DNA of 33,470 bases from an uncultured Erysipelotrichaceae bacterium (lineage in GTDB: Bacteria > Bacillota_I > Bacilli_A > RF39 > UBA660). Made by a program: the position numbers and the translations under genes. Numbering within the stretch: position 1 is the first letter of the stretch; each line of letters starts with the position of its first letter. The DNA is taken from contig CADCFX010000014.1 in assembly GCA_902800945.1 (NCBI GenBank), positions 1 to 33,470 on the forward strand, in the 5' to 3' direction. Below the pieces are notes generated by a model that worked only from the letters and a program-made list of their open reading frames with translations, did not search any database and was not told the DNA's origin. Shown here piece after piece: positions 16,466 to 24,684 of this stretch.

Positions 16466-17491
16466 TTACTTCTTTTTAAAAACAAACAACTTACTCAAAA
16501 TATAATTGAATATTATTATCAATATCTGACATACTAAAGTCCAAGTTATTACCCATAATTTAGTATTCAATTTAAAATGAGTAACAAATAACCACATTAT
16601 AAACATTTCCATCAATAATGTTAAAATTCTACTACCAACAAAACTAATAAACTCTTTAAATATTTGTTTGCTCTTGCTTTTAAACACATAAAATCTATTA
16701 GTAACATAAGCAAATAGAACAGCACATATCCAAGATATAATAATTGCCAATTGTAATTCCAACTTCTTCTTAGCATCCAATATAGTAAACAGTAAGCCCC
16801 ATTTAACAACAACTGAAACAACAGTAGTTAAAAAGCCTACTACCATATATGACCAAAATTCTTCATTCTTATGATATATACCCCATCCCCAACGCCAAAA
16901 TCTTACTAATGGATTAGGTTTATAATCATAATAATTATATATTTTATTCTTTTTTACTAAAAATCCCTCTCTAGCTTCTTCAATCAATGGTAAGTCATTA
17001 ATTGAATCAGTATACATCTTATCAACTATTCCTTTTGGATATTCAGAATAAAACAATCTTACTTTTTCCGCCTTATGACAGTTTTTACCAATTACTTCTC
17101 CAGTATTTAAGTCCATCTCTGTTGCAATAAGACCATGTACCTTATAAGCCTTTTGAATGTAAGAAAGCCAAAAAGTACACGAAGCAGAAATAATAACGTC
17201 CCTACTATGAGTTTTTTTATTTACCCAAAAATCTTTCAACTTTTTTTCATGCTTTTCCCAAAATTCATTAACAAAAGAATCTATATCATCAATTCTCTTT
17301 ACAAAAGAAAACACTACTTTTTTAAAGTCTTCTATTTTTATAATTTTTAATAATTTTAATATAGCAAACCAAATTATTTTAGGAAAACTAAGTATTATAC
17401 TTGGATATTTTTTTACAGCAAACAAAAAAATATCAATACCTGAGTCTCCATCATATATTGTGCCATCAAAATCATACACATCATATTTCAT
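16466..17491 (-). CDS. HAD-family phosphatase fused to a GtrA-like membrane domain
   Basis: 341 residues from ATG 17491 (upstream TTG/GTG codons are in the GGTGG binding site). Residues 1-200 are a SerB/HAD-IB-like phosphatase with all four motifs: DFDGT (D7, D9), SASCTFW (S102/S104), K143 and DSINDLP (D162, D166). Residues 213-341 carry four helices of the GtrA family, with TNRFYVFKS and NYILSKLFVFKK repeats typical of it. GtrA-like proteins act with polyprenyl-phosphate sugars in wall glycosylation. The fusion suggests dephosphorylation of a lipid-linked or related substrate at the membrane during polymer synthesis; the substrate is not readable from sequence. It follows tagO in the same unit. 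Confidence 0.85.
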   Translation of the reverse strand: MKYDVYDFDGTIYDGDSGIDIFLFAVKKYPSIILSFPKIIWFAILKLLKIIKIEDFKKVVFSFVKRIDDIDSFVNEFWEKHEKKLKDFWVNKKTHSRDVIISASCTFWLSYIQKAYKVHGLIATEMDLNTGEVIGKNCHKAEKVRLFYSEYPKGIVDKMYTDSINDLPLIEEAREGFLVKKNKIYNYYDYKPNPLVRFWRWGWGIYHKNEEFWSYMVVGFLTTVVSVVVKWGLLFTILDAKKKLELQLAIIISWICAVLFAYVTNRFYVFKSKSKQIFKEFISFVGSRILTLLMEMFIMWLFVTHFKLNTKLWVITWTLVCQILIIIFNYILSKLFVFKKK

Positions 17492-17525
17492 GAATACCAC
17501 CAACTTGTATTGATATTATCATATT

Positions 17526-18599
17526 TTATGCTTTTTTTCCACGTTTCTCATTCTTTTTGTCCTTTTTATGTTCAAACAAAATATCAGTTTTTACCACTAA
17601 GAACAATAATAACACCATTAGAGCAACATATACACCAATAGCTAACTTCTTATCCCCCAATACATAAAATATTGAAACAGAAGCAAATAATATGTTTATT
17701 CCATAAATAATTAACACAGAGGCTGGTATACTAAACCTCATCTTAAGTAATTGAAAATGGAAATGTTCTTTATCAGGAGTTCCAATTCCCTGCCCCTTTA
17801 AAGCTCTTCTTAAAATAGCTAATCCTGTATCAAAAATAGGAATTGCTAATATTACCACTGGAATAATTAAAGTAGTCAAAGTAGGTCCTTTATATCCTAA
17901 TAAAGCGATAATACTAATTATAAATCCTAAAAAATAACTACCACTATCACCTATATATATTTTAGCAGGATAAAAGTTATATACTAAAAATCCTAAAGTA
18001 GCTCCAAGAGTAATTAAAGATAACATAGTATCCAAACCTTCAGCCCTATTTAGAATAAAGCCAATAATAGCAATCGTCAAAAAATATATAGAAGAAATTC
18101 CCGATGATAATCCATCTAAACCATCAATCAAATTAATAGCATTAGTAATAGCCACTATAAAGAATATCGTAATAATATAATTAAGAGGTACTGGGAAATT
18201 AATACTAAAGCCAAAAAGATCCACATAATCAATTACTATTTTTCCATAAAAAACTATAACACACGCAGCAATTATATGCACAATAAATTTTGGCAAAGCT
18301 CCAACAGATTTAATATCATCTATCATTCCAATAAATACTATTATAAATCCACCTATCAGTATTGAAATCATTTGATAAGAAGATCTAGCAAATAACATAT
18401 AACCTACCAGAAAAGCTCCAAAAACACCTAACCCCCCCATTCTTGGTACAGGCTCTTTTTGAATTTTTCTAGCATTAGGCATATCCATTGCCCCCGTATG
18501 AATAGCACATTTTTTAGCTAATGGTACTAAAACAACACTAACCAAAAAAGTAATAAATACAACAATTAAAGCATTATGTCCATTAACACTTAGATTCAT
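17526..18599 (-). CDS. tagO: Undecaprenyl-phosphate GlcNAc-1-phosphate transferase (TagO/WecA type)
   Basis: 357 residues from ATG 18599; the GTG at 18608 belongs to the GGGTGAT ribosome binding site. About ten or eleven helices. Family motifs: PNARKIQKEPVPRMGGLG in the first cytoplasmic loop, GMIDDIK (Mg-binding DD), NAINLIDGLDGLSSG, YIGDSGS and the cytoplasmic HFHFQLL region, a variant of the usual H-x-HH. Lack of the MraY-specific peptide-binding segment and the PNxRK...GG form favour the TagO/WecA group, which puts the first sugar phosphate on undecaprenyl phosphate for teichoic acid or wall polysaccharide. A C-terminal Lys-rich tail is cytoplasmic. Its neighbourhood of wall enzymes and a divergent LCP ligase supports the assignment. 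Confidence 0.9.
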   Translation of the reverse strand: MNLSVNGHNALIVVFITFLVSVVLVPLAKKCAIHTGAMDMPNARKIQKEPVPRMGGLGVFGAFLVGYMLFARSSYQMISILIGGFIIVFIGMIDDIKSVGALPKFIVHIIAACVIVFYGKIVIDYVDLFGFSINFPVPLNYIITIFFIVAITNAINLIDGLDGLSSGISSIYFLTIAIIGFILNRAEGLDTMLSLITLGATLGFLVYNFYPAKIYIGDSGSYFLGFIISIIALLGYKGPTLTTLIIPVVILAIPIFDTGLAILRRALKGQGIGTPDKEHFHFQLLKMRFSIPASVLIIYGINILFASVSIFYVLGDKKLAIGVYVALMVLLLFLVVKTDILFEHKKDKKNEKRGKKA

Positions 18600-18643
18600 A
18601 TCAATCACCCAATAACATATTATATACTATTTTTAGTATAAAT

Positions 18644-20503
18644 CTATGCTTTTTTTCTTCCTTTAGTTTTAGATTTAGTTCTTGCTTTCTTTTTAACAAC
18701 AGGTAATACTTCAGTCTCATCTCTTTCATATAAATCAAAAGCACTCTCTTCAAAGACTTCATCGTTTAAGAATTCTCTCTGAGCTTTTTTCTCTAAAGCC
18801 TTTTTCTTTTTCTTTAACATCTTTTCTTCTTTCTTTGTTTTAGGCTCTTCATCATCTTCAAAACTCTTAGCATTAGCTTTAGCTATATTTCTAAGTATAT
18901 CAGTATCTGATATTAAAGTAGGATTCTTATCTTTCTTTTTAGGTTCTTCAGCATAATCATCTTCATCTAAATCAATAATATCTTCATTTCTAAATAGAAT
19001 AGTCTTATCATCAATTGTATCTTCTTCTACTACTTCTTCCTCTTCTATTTCTTCTTCAGCCACAGGTTCTTCTTGCACAACTTGTTCTTCTTCAGAAATA
19101 GTATCTATATCAGCTTTTTCATTCGCTTCTTCCTCATCAGCATACTCACTATCTCTATGCTTTTTTATTCTTTTTTCCATATAATTATATAATTCTTCAT
19201 TTTTTCTTCTTAATCTTATAACATATAATACTAAGATAATAACAAGTAACAAAGCTAATCCAGATAAACAAACAAACACTAAAGATATTAACTTGTAATC
19301 CATATCACTTTTCTTACTAACTGGTACTTCTTCCGTAACAGTCCCTATTTCTGTATATTTTAATATAGTCCCTTCTTTAATATCGTAATAATACCAAGAC
19401 TCTTCTCCATTAATAGTATTAATGCCATAGATTAATACTAAATTATCCTTTTCATCTTTACAATAAACCGTTAAATTCTTCTCAGCAACAGTTATATCTC
19501 TAGTTTTTTCATACCCTTTTATAGTGTTTTTAGGTTTTATAGGAACAATAGTAATAGAACTACTACTAATTTGTTCATATAAAGTATATTCCCCATCTTT
19601 ATACATAAAATAGTTCATATTAGAATCTTGATCTTTTAATACAACTACTATAATACCAGTTTGTTCATTCTTATAAGCTACAACATCTTTATCATCAATT
19701 TTAATAGTAGTTGAAGTATACCCTGCAGGTATTTCTAAAGCTCCCTCTTTAGTTACCACTTTATATTCTTTTCCATCGACTTTAACAATTATTGGATTAG
19801 CCTCTGCTCTAGTAATTGTAATAGTATAAGTTTTCTTTTTACCATTTTGAGCAGTTACGGTTACACTAAACTTATTAGCTCCCTCATTTAAATCCACAAA
19901 ATCAATTGGTGTTATTGTCGCCGTCTTATCCTCTAAAAACGCATTAATTTGAACTTTTTCAACATCTCCAGGAACATCTAATGAATACTCTGTTACATCT
20001 TTGCTAAATTGAGGCGTAATAGTATAATCCGTTACTTCTAATAATCTTAAGTTATTATTTCCACTCAAATTAGTATTATCATTAATTTGTTTAGTTGCAT
20101 CTTTAAAATCAGCATTTACTTTAACAGATCCTTTAGATACCTCCATTGGCTGCTCAGTCTCATAATCATATAATAATACTCCATTTAAACCAATAGTATT
20201 CTGTGCCACATTATTAGCTTTAAATGTATACTTACTTGTAGTTGAATCCCCTACCGTACCAGAAGAACAAGGACTACTAGGACTAGTTAAAGTTAAATTA
20301 GTACTATTATAATCAACACAATACTGCCATGACCCAACCTGTCCTGCACTCTGTCCGACATTTCCAACAGTTACCGTAACAGTAAAAGTATTACCAACGA
20401 TAACATTGCCAGTACTTGCTGACATTGAAATAGAAGCTGCATTAACCTTTCCCAACCCCAGTAAGAATACTAAAATTGTAATTATAAACACTCTTTTTTT
20501 CAT
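18644..20503 (-). CDS. Membrane protein with extracellular cohesin-like and cadherin-like domains and a long charged cytoplasmic tail
   Basis: 619 residues. Signal peptide 1-22. Residues 24-132 look like a cohesin-type jelly roll (SMSASTGNVIVGNTFTVTV, then a conserved-looking VDYN strand and ILLYDYE-like late strand). Residues 149-232 are a cadherin-like beta sandwich. Residues 237-400 are unassigned beta sequence. One helix spans 406-429. The last 190 residues are cytoplasmic: an acidic stretch (about 455-520) followed by Lys-rich segments ending in KGRKKA. The cohesin reading is by pattern, not by search. The start site AGGAGG contains the stop TAG of the upstream dockerin-bearing glucosaminidase gene, so translation is probably coupled and the proteins made in proportion. 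Likely role: anchoring that or other dockerin proteins at the surface. Confidence 0.7.
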   Translation of the reverse strand: MKKRVFIITILVFLLGLGKVNAASISMSASTGNVIVGNTFTVTVTVGNVGQSAGQVGSWQYCVDYNSTNLTLTSPSSPCSSGTVGDSTTSKYTFKANNVAQNTIGLNGVLLYDYETEQPMEVSKGSVKVNADFKDATKQINDNTNLSGNNNLRLLEVTDYTITPQFSKDVTEYSLDVPGDVEKVQINAFLEDKTATITPIDFVDLNEGANKFSVTVTAQNGKKKTYTITITRAEANPIIVKVDGKEYKVVTKEGALEIPAGYTSTTIKIDDKDVVAYKNEQTGIIVVVLKDQDSNMNYFMYKDGEYTLYEQISSSSITIVPIKPKNTIKGYEKTRDITVAEKNLTVYCKDEKDNLVLIYGINTINGEESWYYYDIKEGTILKYTEIGTVTEEVPVSKKSDMDYKLISLVFVCLSGLALLLVIILVLYVIRLRRKNEELYNYMEKRIKKHRDSEYADEEEANEKADIDTISEEEQVVQEEPVAEEEIEEEEVVEEDTIDDKTILFRNEDIIDLDEDDYAEEPKKKDKNPTLISDTDILRNIAKANAKSFEDDEEPKTKKEEKMLKKKKKALEKKAQREFLNDEVFEESAFDLYERDETEVLPVVKKKARTKSKTKGRKKA

Positions 20504-20514
20504 ATTATATCCTC

Positions 20515-22515
20515 CTATAATTTACTACTACCAATTATGTGTTTCTTTATCTTTAATAAATCCAAAGCATTTATTTCATTATCAAAACTCGTATCACCCG
20601 CAAAAAATTGTGCTCCTTCTAATTTATATACACCTAGTATATGCTTTTTACACTTTAATAAATCTAAAGCTGATATTTCTCCATCTCCATCAATATCACC
20701 TCTAACAGCTATATTATAAGTTTTAGATTCTCTACTCCCCGTAATTATAGCCTTATCTAATGTATTCATTTTACCAGAACTCTTATTATCATTATTTGCA
20801 GAATTAATAACTGCTTTAGCTCCTTGGTCATTAGCTTTATTAATTATAAAACTAACATCTGTCCCTGGTGAAAAACCAAACATAATATCACCGTTAGTCT
20901 TTACTTCCATACCATTAATTACATTATCCACCTTAATCTCGGGACCAACTATGCTATTTCCACCTTCATCTATAACTGTTTCTCTTTCAACAGTAACAAC
21001 ATATGTCTTTTGCGTTCCACTTGGTGCAGTAACTATAATCTTAGCTGTAGCCCTGTTCTCTACAAGTTTTAATACACCAGCTCCACTAACAGTAGCACCA
21101 GGATCTTCAGTAACAACTGTTACATTTACATCATCGCTTACAAATGGTGCTTTATAATAATACTCTGTTACATCCCTATCAAAGCCATTAATTAATACAT
21201 CGTTAACTTTTATTTCTTTAAGATTATTATTATAACTTAAGTCACTAGCACTACTTCCGTTATTACTTGCTCCGCTATCAGTATAAACCGGTATTAAAAA
21301 AACAAAATTACTAGCTAATAAACCAGCCTTTGAATAAGCCGAATATATATTCTTTGCTTCTTGAATCGGCGCATAAATATTAGTCATATATTGATGAGAA
21401 TACTTAGAATAAGTATTATTAGGACCAACATTAAACTTTTCATAGTACAAAGTATTTTGACCACGACTAACATATTGTTCTTTTAAAAACTCCGCCCCTC
21501 CCGCTATAGCAAGTTGAGGAGTTGTCCATGGTCTTCCGTAAGACGTCCCTCCAATAAATCCGGCAGCATAAGCAAGTCCTCTTCCAATAGCACCCAAATT
21601 CATCGAAGGTAAGGGATAAGCTCCAATATTATAAAAATTATAATATCCATCCAAACTATTTCCTTCATAAGTAGAACTTGTAGTTACAGAAGGATCATTA
21701 TTTAACTCCGTAGTATAAGTGCCAGTAACTGCTCTATAACGAGGATTAGAAGCACCCTCTTGCTTACTTCTTGCTAACAAATGCAAAGCATTATATCCAT
21801 ACTTATCAGCTGCAGCCTTAAAATCATTCTTATAATTAGCCAAATTCCCTGTAGCAACAGCATTAATAGCTGTATCATTAATAATCGATTTACTACTTTC
21901 CAAATCCATATACTGAAAAATCAAGTTTTCAAACAAACCATTTTTAGCATCTAAAAACATTTTAACAACATCTGCATTTACATAATAATAATCAGCTTCT
22001 AGAGCAGTTCCGTTTAAATAATAATTACTATTAGAAGTTTGTAATGCACTTAACCACTTTTCTTTTTCGGCCGCCTCTCCCAGGCTAACCCCAGTATTTT
22101 CAGCTCTAAATCCCCAAGCAGGATACCTATTATGCAAATAAAATAAATAAGGGCAATAACTTTCAGGGAAGCCATTATTTTTTAAAGAATCGCAATAACT
22201 ATTATATCCCTCTCCTTGACTCATGCTTGCATCTACATTAATAACTTGTGATTTTGCCACATATCCTATTGAAGAACCATATTCAATCTTATAAACAGTT
22301 CCCTGTACTCCAAGCACTTTAACCTTAGTTCCAAAGGCAATTTCTGTTACTTGCGAATTTGACAAAACATTAGGAGCATTATGAACACCTAAAGCATCCG
22401 CCATAATCATTCCATTAAAAGGATAATTTTCTGCATAAACATCCTTTACCCCACAAAATAAAGACAATAAGAAAGAAAGTGTAAATAAAGTGACTACATA
22501 AAGCTTTTTTTTCAT
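20515..22515 (-). CDS. Secreted glucosaminidase with SH3, cadherin-like and dockerin domains
   Basis: 666 residues from ATG 22515 (AAGGAGG 9 bases upstream; the ATG at 22524 abuts the site and is too close). Signal peptide 1-28; SH3-like domain about 32-95; glucosaminidase catalytic domain about 105-400 with LLARSKQEG (probable catalytic E253) and YNFYNIGAYP; cadherin-like domain about 425-512; a spacer beta domain 526-600; and a dockerin at 606-664. Both dockerin calcium loops are recognisable: D607-x-D609-x-D611-G...D618 and D641-x-S-x-D645-N...D652, each followed by LDLLK-x-KKHI. Such enzymes cut peptidoglycan glycans at N-acetylglucosamine. The dockerin would bind a cohesin; the next gene encodes a cohesin-like membrane protein. 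First gene of the six-gene unit. Confidence 0.9.
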   Translation of the reverse strand: MKKKLYVVTLFTLSFLLSLFCGVKDVYAENYPFNGMIMADALGVHNAPNVLSNSQVTEIAFGTKVKVLGVQGTVYKIEYGSSIGYVAKSQVINVDASMSQGEGYNSYCDSLKNNGFPESYCPYLFYLHNRYPAWGFRAENTGVSLGEAAEKEKWLSALQTSNSNYYLNGTALEADYYYVNADVVKMFLDAKNGLFENLIFQYMDLESSKSIINDTAINAVATGNLANYKNDFKAAADKYGYNALHLLARSKQEGASNPRYRAVTGTYTTELNNDPSVTTSSTYEGNSLDGYYNFYNIGAYPLPSMNLGAIGRGLAYAAGFIGGTSYGRPWTTPQLAIAGGAEFLKEQYVSRGQNTLYYEKFNVGPNNTYSKYSHQYMTNIYAPIQEAKNIYSAYSKAGLLASNFVFLIPVYTDSGASNNGSSASDLSYNNNLKEIKVNDVLINGFDRDVTEYYYKAPFVSDDVNVTVVTEDPGATVSGAGVLKLVENRATAKIIVTAPSGTQKTYVVTVERETVIDEGGNSIVGPEIKVDNVINGMEVKTNGDIMFGFSPGTDVSFIINKANDQGAKAVINSANNDNKSSGKMNTLDKAIITGSRESKTYNIAVRGDIDGDGEISALDLLKCKKHILGVYKLEGAQFFAGDTSFDNEINALDLLKIKKHIIGSSKL

Positions 22516-22547
22516 CAATCCCATCCTCCTTTAGTCTATACTAATTA

Positions 22548-22576
22548 ATTATAACACATCAAAGAGCCTATAACAA
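22548..22576 (-). promoter_or_regulatory. Promoter of the six-gene wall/nifJ unit
   Basis: -35 TTGTTA (22571-22576), 17-base spacer, -10 TATAAT (22548-22553) with extended TG. It is divergent from the LCP promoter at 22602-22630 with 25 bases between the -35 boxes. Confidence 0.75.
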
Positions 22577-22601: not shown

Positions 22602-22630
22602 TTGTTTCACCCAACTATTTATGATATAAT
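22602..22630 (+). promoter_or_regulatory. Promoter of the LCP-PASTA gene
   Basis: -35 TTGTTT (22602-22607), 17-base spacer, -10 TATAAT (22625-22630) with extended TG. A TTGACA at 22579-22584 has no -10 at the right distance. Confidence 0.7.
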
Positions 22631-22656
22631 TGGAACGAATATTAAGGAGTATTAAT

Positions 22657-24684
22657 ATGGGAACATTATCAAAAAAGCTTAAAAAAGCTAACAAAATACA
22701 AAGATTTTTTTATCATTTCACAATGATAACCTATCTAGCTTGTTTCGGTTATTTCATTTATGGATTACTACAACTAGCAAGAATTGAAACGTTAATAAGA
22801 ATTATAGTTATTGCCTTTTTTGCAATTTGGTTTTTTATATATATTCTAGCAGGAGCAATAACAATAATAAGTAAAAAGAAGAAAACATTCATATTCTTAA
22901 CTATTTTTAGTTTATTACTATGCCCATTATTTGTATTATCTTCATTTTATATTAATAAAGTATTCAGCTCAATAAGTATAATGAATCGTAATACCGTAAC
23001 ATATACAACTAATTTAATTAGCCTTAAAGATAGTAAAATAACTAAAAATGGCATAATCGGTATGATCAAATCTAAAGAAGACATCGAAGGAAACCTACTA
23101 GCCAAAAAACTTATAGAAAAAGAGAAATTAAATAACAAAATTGAATACTACGATGAATATACAAAAATGTTACAAGACCTATACAACGGAGAAATTGAAG
23201 GATGCTTTGTCTCAAGTAACTATGCTATTATTTTTGGAAACACAGATGATTTTGCTAATATAGAAGATGAAGTAAAAGTTCAATATTCATATAGCGAAGA
23301 TATGAAAAACGCTGACAATAAAACTACAAATAATAAGGGGAAAGACTTAACAGAACCATTTACTATTTTACTAATGGGTGTTGATTCAGAAAAAGACGGG
23401 TTAAAAGCTAACCAAGCCTTCAATGGAGATACTCTAATCCTAGTTACTTTTAATCCTAAAACTCTAAATGCGACTATGTTTAGTATTCCAAGAGATACAT
23501 GGGTACCAATAGCTTGTAACAACAATCGAGAAAATAAAATTAATTCCTCAGCCGCCTATGGATCAAGCTGTGTAATTAAAACTATTCAAAATTTAACAGG
23601 AATAAATATTGATTATTATGCCAAAGTAAACTTCAAAGGCGTTGTAGATTTAGTTGATTCTCTTGGTGGTGTAACAGTCGAAGTTGAAAGACCAGATTTC
23701 TGGTATATAGAAAATGGTAAAGTATACCAAAACAAAGTATGTGAACAGGATTCTAATCGTCGCTTCGGAAAAGATATAGTTTGTATGGATTTGGGCTTAC
23801 AAACACTTACAGGAGAACAAGCACTAGCCTATGCCCGCTGCCGTCATCTATATGCAATATCAGACATTGCTCGTAACCAACATCAACAACAAATCATTGA
23901 AGCTATTGTTAAGAAAATAAAAGAACTTAAGAATGTCTCTGATTTTGAAAAAATACTAAACGCTGTATCACGAAATATTGAAACTAATATAAAAACAAAT
24001 CAAATGTTGTCACTATACAACGTCGCCAAAAATATGCTATCTGACAAAACAGGAACCAAAAACCTATCAATTCAAAAAACATATTTAGCTTACTACAACT
24101 TAGGATTATCATATACTTCAGCATTAGGTTACTATAAAGAGTCACTAAATGAAATTGTTAAAGCAATGAAAGTAAACCTAGAATTAGAAAAACCAGAGAT
24201 TATTAAAACATTTGAAATATCATATAGCGAAAATTATACTACCCCATTAATTGGTTATGGTATAACTGGTAATAAAAAGCAAGTAGTACCTAATTATATA
24301 GGTTATGATAGTAACTATGTTAGTAACTGGTGCCAGAACAATGGTATATCTTGTTACTTCAATAGAGTCGATAGTGCTGCCCAAAATGGTCAAATACTAA
24401 CCCAATCAGTATCAGGAGTACTATTAGACAGCATTAGTTCAATATCTTTTAGTGTAAGTAATGGTTCAGAATCTAATCCCGAACCAATTGCGGAAAAAGA
24501 AAACAAAGTAATTCCTAAAAAAGAAGAACCAAAAGAAGAACCAAAAGAAGAGCAAAAAAAGGAAGAACCAGAACCAATTGTTGAACCAGAAAAAAAAGAA
24601 GAAAAAGAACCAGAAACTCCTTCATCTAATGAGGAGCAAAAGAAAAAAGAAGAAGAAACTACAGAAGAAATAATAACAGATTAA
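22657..24684 (+). CDS. LCP-family wall polymer ligase with C-terminal PASTA domain
   Basis: 675 residues from ATG 22657, with AAGGAG at correct spacing; the in-frame TTG at 22630 is within the -10 box. Three helices (about 22-42, 47-70, 79-98), an extracellular accessory region (100-230), the LytR-CpsA-Psr domain (about 234-420), a PASTA-like domain (544-605, VPNYIGYDS...SVSNG, with a likely Cys pair) and a Pro/Glu/Lys-rich tail. LCP motifs seen: FTILLMGVDS, GDTLILVTFNP, SIPRD (R279, D280), INSSAAYG, ALAYARCRH (R394) and DIARNQHQQQ. LCP enzymes move teichoic acid or polysaccharide from undecaprenyl carriers to peptidoglycan, and PASTA domains bind peptidoglycan. Divergent from the tagO-containing unit, fitting a shared pathway. 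Confidence 0.9.
   Translation: MGTLSKKLKKANKIQRFFYHFTMITYLACFGYFIYGLLQLARIETLIRIIVIAFFAIWFFIYILAGAITIISKKKKTFIFLTIFSLLLCPLFVLSSFYINKVFSSISIMNRNTVTYTTNLISLKDSKITKNGIIGMIKSKEDIEGNLLAKKLIEKEKLNNKIEYYDEYTKMLQDLYNGEIEGCFVSSNYAIIFGNTDDFANIEDEVKVQYSYSEDMKNADNKTTNNKGKDLTEPFTILLMGVDSEKDGLKANQAFNGDTLILVTFNPKTLNATMFSIPRDTWVPIACNNNRENKINSSAAYGSSCVIKTIQNLTGINIDYYAKVNFKGVVDLVDSLGGVTVEVERPDFWYIENGKVYQNKVCEQDSNRRFGKDIVCMDLGLQTLTGEQALAYARCRHLYAISDIARNQHQQQIIEAIVKKIKELKNVSDFEKILNAVSRNIETNIKTNQMLSLYNVAKNMLSDKTGTKNLSIQKTYLAYYNLGLSYTSALGYYKESLNEIVKAMKVNLELEKPEIIKTFEISYSENYTTPLIGYGITGNKKQVVPNYIGYDSNYVSNWCQNNGISCYFNRVDSAAQNGQILTQSVSGVLLDSISSISFSVSNGSESNPEPIAEKENKVIPKKEEPKEEPKEEQKKEEPEPIVEPEKKEEKEPETPSSNEEQKKKEEETTEEIITD

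Follow-up and report, generated by a model that had tools for sequence, protein, structure and literature searches.

Two adjacent minus-strand genes in a stretch of DNA from an uncultured Erysipelotrichaceae bacterium encode a secreted glucosaminidase that ends in a dockerin and a single-span membrane protein whose first domain is a predicted cohesin. The stretch, called the window throughout, covers 33,470 nucleotides (GenBank assembly GCA_902800945.1, contig CADCFX010000014.1, positions 1 to 33,470). We put the probability at roughly 0.85 that the two genes form a dedicated one-to-one cohesin-dockerin tether holding the SagB-like glucosaminidase at the membrane; very probably, this protein clip keeps the enzyme on the cell's own membrane. 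Cohesin-dockerin pairs are known mainly from plant-fiber-degrading cellulosomes and from some glycosidases. In the present case, that clip appears as a conserved 1:1 tether to the membrane whose cargo is a peptidoglycan hydrolase, both in small-genome gut Bacilli and in records labeled Lachnospiraceae and Oscillospiraceae.

A hydrolase dockerin and an anchor cohesin encoded by adjoining genes

The C terminus of the hydrolase matches the dockerin profile PF00404 (residues 609 to 663; E = 2.5e-12, 47.2 bits against a curated cutoff of 22.9). We examined its two repeats for Asp or Asn at calcium-loop positions 1, 3, 5, 9, and 12. Repeat 1 carries D610, D612, D614, S618, and D621, with Ser instead of Asp/Asn at position 9; repeat 2 carries D644, S646, D648, N652, and D655, with Ser at position 3; Asp is present at positions 1, 5, and 12 of both. 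The calcium-loop Asp residues (610/612/614/621 and 644/648/655) are the same ones that an earlier examination of the window (the sequence-only reading) had picked out as a two-loop dockerin (D607/D609/D611/D618 and D641/D645/D652); its numbers are 3 lower because it started the hydrolase at Met4 (ATG at 22515). Dockerin specificity is determined by positions 10, 11, 17, 18, and 22 (PMC5748583; also PMC8063739), and both repeats carry Ala-Leu at positions 10 and 11 and Lys-Lys at positions 17 and 18. Recognition residues are thus symmetric between the repeats, and the Ala/Leu at 10/11 follows the Ala/Leu(Ile) pattern of mesophilic-clostridial dockerins (PMC5748583).

The catalytic region matches 6fxo, the bifunctional autolysin of Staphylococcus aureus (phmmer E = 3.3e-9), and contains a Glu, E256, that is invariant in 13 diverse relatives. 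It also matches the SagB model NF052642 (E = 4.8e-11), with 42.4 bits against a cutoff of 425; because this score is far under the cutoff, we classify the hydrolase, on sequence grounds, as a SagB relative and not a SagB orthologue. Its only hydrophobic segment is N-terminal (residues 7 to 29), and it has no membrane span.

That the first domain of the anchor (residues 24 to 132) is a cohesin had been the weak point of the sequence-only reading. Searched alone (residues 22 to 137), the domain scores 24.2 bits with PF00963, marginally over the cutoff of 24.1, and cohesin is its best Pfam family (E = 4.3e-5 versus 0.039 for the next family); in a genome-wide six-frame search it scores 18.4 bits, under the cutoff. 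It is short, at about 115 residues versus 139 positions in the Pfam profile. PF00963 recognizes 48 of the 87 homologous domains at E ≤ 0.1, the best with E = 2.1e-10. As a single sequence, the anchor gave chance-level matches only against the PDB; a profile of 48 homologues gave 23 first rows that were mostly cohesins or cellulosomal scaffoldins, the exceptions by name being 7urp ("Ribonucleases G and E") and a few entries labeled endoglucanase.

Structure prediction resolved the question. An AlphaFold2 model of the domain reached a predicted local distance difference test score (pLDDT) of 91.8 and a predicted template modeling score (pTM) of 0.84, and its top 16 Foldseek matches were all cohesins, with Clostridium perfringens 2vo8 first (E = 2.5e-6). 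VIA-align gave Z scores of 13.3 (2w1n), 13.2 (2vo8), and 13.1, all for C. perfringens cohesins, versus 11.7 or less for unrelated sandwiches; the model superposes on 2vo8 with a root mean square deviation of 2.2 across 110 aligned residues. The predicted fold, both structural searches, and the profile bear out the proposal, and on the strength of the model we consider the cohesin call settled in its favor.

The opposite end of the anchor is highly charged, with 59 Asp/Glu and 41 Lys/Arg among the 189 residues from residue 431 onward. This tail is acidic and then basic at the C terminus, and the protein is shorter in most relatives.

The stop codon of the hydrolase gene overlaps the ribosome-binding site of the anchor gene

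Eleven nucleotides separate the two genes. On the minus strand the junction reads ...AAA TTA TAG GAGGATATAAT ATG, and the first two bases of AGGAGG (20516 to 20511) are the AG of the hydrolase TAG stop, an overlap that the sequence-only reading had noticed; 7 nucleotides follow before the ATG at 20503. Among 89 same-strand family pairs, the gap from stop to Met has a median of 11 nucleotides (interquartile range, 9 to 14). We set aside a chance overlap, since pairs from different genera keep the short gap. Such an arrangement would favor proportional production of hydrolase and anchor. No terminator-like site was found in the intergenic stretch between the two genes. A promoter-like site lies upstream of the pair (Table 1); promoter-like sites are no more numerous in this region than expected by chance.

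The pair is conserved across Bacillota

To place the pair, we used 145 genomes of the same GTDB family as the window. A relative of the hydrolase is present in 95 and a relative of the anchor in 110 (a count that takes in matches to the cadherin-like domain only), and the two are adjacent in about 90. The full-length anchors examined almost always have a dockerin gene adjoining them on the same strand. A wider scan, with one genome per species, yielded 564 candidate stretches with a hydrolase relative, of which the best 80 were kept; in all 80 of these, an anchor relative with a cohesin-profile match follows the hydrolase relative. Their records carry Bacilli, Lachnospiraceae, Oscillospiraceae, and Eubacterium labels and include the named strain Pseudoflavonifractor sp. 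An44. The system is widespread in Bacillota and not peculiar to the window organism.

Dockerin and cohesin co-vary at recognition positions

We compared cohesin and dockerin distance matrices by a mirror-tree/Mantel analysis of 81 family pairs with 2,000 permutations, and computed partial correlations with the catalytic and cadherin-like domains regressed out. Cohesin and dockerin correlate with r = 0.635 (partial, 0.591; permutation maximum, 0.18), while the other domain pairs give r = 0.21 to 0.32. With the wider scan included (155 pairs), r is 0.617 and the partial correlation is 0.511; leaving out of this analysis the class to which most circularly permuted enzymes belong gives 0.526. When restricted to family pairs whose cohesin has a loose YD motif, the partial correlation is 0.610.

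Mutual information between domains, with average product correction and the control-domain maximum as reference, located this signal. Forty-five dockerin-cohesin column pairs exceed the control-domain maximum. The dockerin columns that stand out are A619, L620, L622, K626, and K627 and their equivalents A653, L654, L656, K660, and K661, that is, positions 10, 11, 13, 17, and 18 of both repeats; positions 10, 11, 17, and 18 coincide with published specificity positions. On the cohesin side, differences between cohesin types confound the columns, and we did not map the interface from them.

Natural swaps agree with the covariation. Locus L114, with a circularly permuted catalytic domain, and locus L142, with a normal one, share the same dockerin and cohesin type, and loci L120 and L123, which both encode PF01832 glucosaminidases, differ jointly in dockerin and cohesin type. 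Judged from these sequences, dockerin and cohesin types appear to change together on different catalytic backgrounds. The regular expressions that first defined the classes were loose, and the class assignments are illustrative; the Mantel and mutual-information analyses carry the argument.

A predicted interface was obtained for a close relative (genome G070, locus L012) whose two genes lie in one frame. Using 61 sequences, we co-folded a single chain of 204 residues that runs from the hydrolase tail through the stop (read as Gln) and the signal peptide to the cohesin. The model has a pLDDT of 91.9 and a pTM of 0.81, with low confidence in 24 residues only. Since, by a simple calculation, undefined placement of domains of about 65 and 110 residues would give a pTM of about 0.5, the value of 0.81 indicates a confident placement of dockerin against cohesin. 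A Foldseek search with this model returned cohesin chains and other sandwiches, with no single-chain cohesin-dockerin complex among the matches listed, so that it does not address interface geometry. Both outcomes that the sequence-only reading would have taken as refuting, a fold unlike cohesin and the lack of a confident interface, were contradicted, the second on the pair of the close relative. Together, covariation, conserved adjacency, and the co-fold of the relative support its central claim that the adjacent dockerin and cohesin are partners.

A probable role at the cell's own wall

In the mechanism that we propose, the glucosaminidase would leave the cell as a free protein, having neither a membrane span nor a sorting motif. 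On the sequence and model evidence, its C-terminal dockerin would then bind the cohesin at the N terminus of the membrane protein translated along with it; this binding would probably involve calcium and allow either of two orientations. The enzyme would be held near the outer face of the membrane, where it could cut nascent or inner-wall glycan strands.

The closest functional parallel is found in S. aureus, where SagB acts together with the membrane protein SpdC, shortening nascent strands and freeing peptidoglycan from its lipid anchor (PMC12272431). Both systems pair a SagB-like glucosaminidase with a membrane protein. Here, however, the coupling would be by cohesin and dockerin, and the partner consists of one span plus a cohesin, whereas SpdC, an integral membrane protein, belongs to the CAAX protease family; the anchor gave no CAAX-protease-type Pfam match and has a single span, unlike an SpdC-type partner. 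Our best reading, by analogy, is that the pair would work like the SagB-SpdC complex without belonging to it. The genes flanking the pair encode a TagO-type glycosyltransferase and a LytR-CpsA-Psr (LCP) wall-polymer ligase (Table 1), the setting already recognized in the sequence-only reading, and among 67 family loci tagO is near the pair in 20 and LCP in 27. A membrane-tethered SagB-like enzyme with these recurrent neighbors suggests a task on the cell's own wall similar to that of SagB-SpdC.

The main rival to an own-wall role is a lytic one, in which the surface-held enzyme attacks other bacteria or scavenges peptidoglycan. The cellulosome of Ruminococcus champanellensis likewise has dockerins on cell wall hydrolases, for which a "lyticome" has been proposed (PMC6403190); many relatives of the window pair come from crowded gut communities, and relatives tether proteases in the same way. 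However, the R. champanellensis hydrolases dock on a multi-cohesin scaffoldin, whereas the window encodes a single dedicated membrane anchor for a single enzyme, and an enzyme on such an anchor would sit under or within the wall of the cell that makes it. As the enzyme is also SagB-like and has tagO and LCP as recurrent neighbors, we consider the lytic role unlikely, though it is the alternative that we take most seriously.

Comparison with known cohesin-dockerin systems

The pair shares both modules with type I cellulosomes (Clostridium thermocellum and mesophilic clostridia), along with a symmetric dockerin whose Ala-Leu at positions 10 and 11 is as in the mesophilic clostridia (PMC5748583). 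It differs in having one short cohesin, on a single-span membrane protein whose dedicated partner is encoded by the preceding gene, and in carrying a peptidoglycan glucosaminidase where the cellulosome carries plant-wall enzymes; no multi-cohesin scaffoldin was seen in the window. We rejected cellulosome membership, as the genome has two dockerin matches and the anchor one cohesin. A single dockerin match, which 61 of the 105 dockerin-bearing family genomes have, is likewise unlike a cellulosome.

The non-cellulosomal cohesins of C. perfringens (2vo8, 2jh2, and 2w1n) are the nearest solved structures and likewise function outside a cellulosome, but there the cohesin is on secreted host-glycan glycosidases, and here it is on the membrane anchor, with the dockerin on the enzyme. 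In Ruminococcus albus, a single cohesin is believed to keep isolated dockerin enzymes at the surface (PMC6118326); that one cohesin serves many fiber-degrading enzymes, in contrast to one cohesin for one adjacent enzyme here. No description of the pair turned up in a literature search that combined dockerin or cohesin with peptidoglycan, autolysin, glucosaminidase, Lachnospiraceae, or RF39. The modules are known; what did not appear in the literature searched is their use as a 1:1 membrane tether that is conserved and translationally coupled and has a peptidoglycan glucosaminidase as its cargo.

One cargo and one anchor

Besides the glucosaminidase, the window genome has one other PF00404 match, in a papain-type protease, which answers the question of further dockerin proteins raised by the sequence-only reading. 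This second dockerin protein (contig C37, 3 to 4466; L149) carries Listeria-Bacteroides repeats and lies at a contig end. Also at a contig end, C5 (50619 to 51980; L248) encodes a protein with an AWN-type cohesin, a cadherin-like domain, and a membrane span. The genes on C37 and C5 are oriented so that the C5 anchor could directly follow the protease, making a possible second pair; a search for an overlap joining the two contigs found none. A 629-amino-acid protein on C15 (L147, 5828 to 7717) has a longer cohesin-like domain, cadherin-like domains, and a C-terminal membrane span, and no dockerin gene was seen next to its gene.

These additional proteins raise the alternative that the hydrolase dockerin serves another cohesin and the adjoining anchor another dockerin, adjacency being incidental: the genome offers one other dockerin and at least two other cohesin-like membrane proteins, on C15 and C5. 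Yet adjoining partners co-vary at recognition positions, most of the family genomes with a dockerin have just one match, and the dockerin of the C37 protease (NSADLL type) and the C5 cohesin (AWN type) are of types that pair together elsewhere. We therefore regard incidental adjacency as highly improbable.

In relatives, cohesin anchors also adjoin dockerin proteins with an M6 peptidase (L121 and L122) or a PF01832 glucosaminidase (L120 and L123), and other dockerin cargo beside anchors has leucine-rich repeats (L232), immunoglobulin (Ig) repeats (L231), or no recognized domain (L244 and L245). The layout of one cargo and one anchor is thus also used for proteases and other cargo. A broader proposal, to which we give slightly less than an even chance, is that in gut Bacilli and Clostridia the dockerin of each secreted hydrolase or protease would be read only by the cohesin of the adjacent anchor, that a cell may hold several such mutually exclusive pairs, and that the glucosaminidase pair may be a widespread counterpart of SagB-SpdC.

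Evidence that weighs against a dedicated tether

Several observations count against a dedicated 1:1 tether. The window cohesin clears its Pfam cutoff by just 0.1 bit. In the wider-scan subset, the partial correlation between cohesin and dockerin falls to 0.365 because the cadherin-like spacer co-varies with both domains (0.57 to 0.62). The co-fold is that of the G070 pair, the window genes being in different frames, and was judged by its scores on one matched pair. With at least two other cohesin-like proteins in the genome (C15 and C5), cross-binding is possible. Finally, one relative (genome G066, locus L103) has a hydrolase without a dockerin and keeps the cohesin anchor, and a PF00404 search of that genome found no dockerin; possible explanations of this exception are that the loss is recent, that the assembly is faulty, or that the anchor has another ligand.

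Least probable of the alternatives, by a narrow step, is that the N-terminal domain of the anchor folds as some generic Ig-like sandwich, such as a chagasin-type I42 inhibitor or a Big domain, and binds no dockerin: Inhibitor_I42 matches 34 of 87 homologues at E ≤ 0.1 (best, 2.3e-8) and BatD 48 of 87, many Ig-like folds also exceed a VIA-align Z of 10, and divergent members lack the YD motif, but the window domain matches cohesin better than any other family, PDB profile matches are overwhelmingly cohesins, as are the top structural matches, and the domain co-varies with the dockerin.

Features of the locus and variation among relatives

The coordinates of the pair, its domains, and its neighbors are given in Table 1.

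TABLE 1 Positions in the window of the tether genes, their domains and signals, and flanking genes
Feature	Coordinates	Strand	Basis
Hydrolase gene: secreted glucosaminidase with C-terminal dockerin, 669 amino acids from first ATG	20515..22524	-	Open reading frame; Pfam and NCBIfam matches
SH3_3 domain of hydrolase, residues 54-92	22249..22365	-	PF08239 E 1.6e-4, below curated cutoff
SagB/Atl-like glucosaminidase catalytic region, residues 183-407	21304..21978	-	Matches to 6fxo and NF052642; invariant E256
Cadherin-like beta-sandwich spacer of hydrolase, residues 436-515	20980..21219	-	PF12733 E 6.9e-4, below curated cutoff
Type I dockerin, two symmetric calcium-loop/helix repeats, residues 609-665	20530..20700	-	PF00404; covariation with cohesin
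AGGAGG, ribosome-binding site of anchor gene, overlapping hydrolase TAG stop	20511..20516	-	Sequence
Anchor gene: cohesin-bearing single-span membrane anchor, 619 amino acids	18644..20503	-	Open reading frame; hydrophobic segments 4-26 and 401-434
Predicted cohesin domain of anchor, residues 23-137	20093..20437	-	PF00963; AlphaFold2 model; Foldseek 2vo8 E 2.5e-6; VIA-align
Cadherin-like domain of anchor, residues 158-232	19808..20032	-	PF12733 E 2e-10
Transmembrane segment of anchor, residues 401-434	19202..19303	-	Kyte-Doolittle maximum 3.27
Presumed cytoplasmic charged tail of anchor, residues 435-619 (P0002)	18647..19201	-	Charge count
TagO/WecA-type glycosyltransferase, next gene on same strand	17526..18608	-	PF00953 E 1.8e-37
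LCP wall-polymer ligase, divergent neighbor	22630..24684	+	PF03816 E 5.2e-43
Promoter-like site upstream of pair, TTGTTA-17-TATAAT, TG-extended	22548..22576	-	10 of 12 consensus positions

Downstream of tagO, a single open reading frame on the minus strand (16466 to 17503) encodes a HAD-type phosphatase fused to a GtrA/DPMS-type membrane domain.

Of the 73 hydrolase relatives that allowed placement of both segments, 10 have a circularly permuted glucosaminidase domain (L106, L108, L109, L110, L111, L112, L113, L114, L116, and L117). In these, the equivalent of P0001 residues 325 to 418 precedes that of residues 113 to 322, and the dockerin is still C-terminal.

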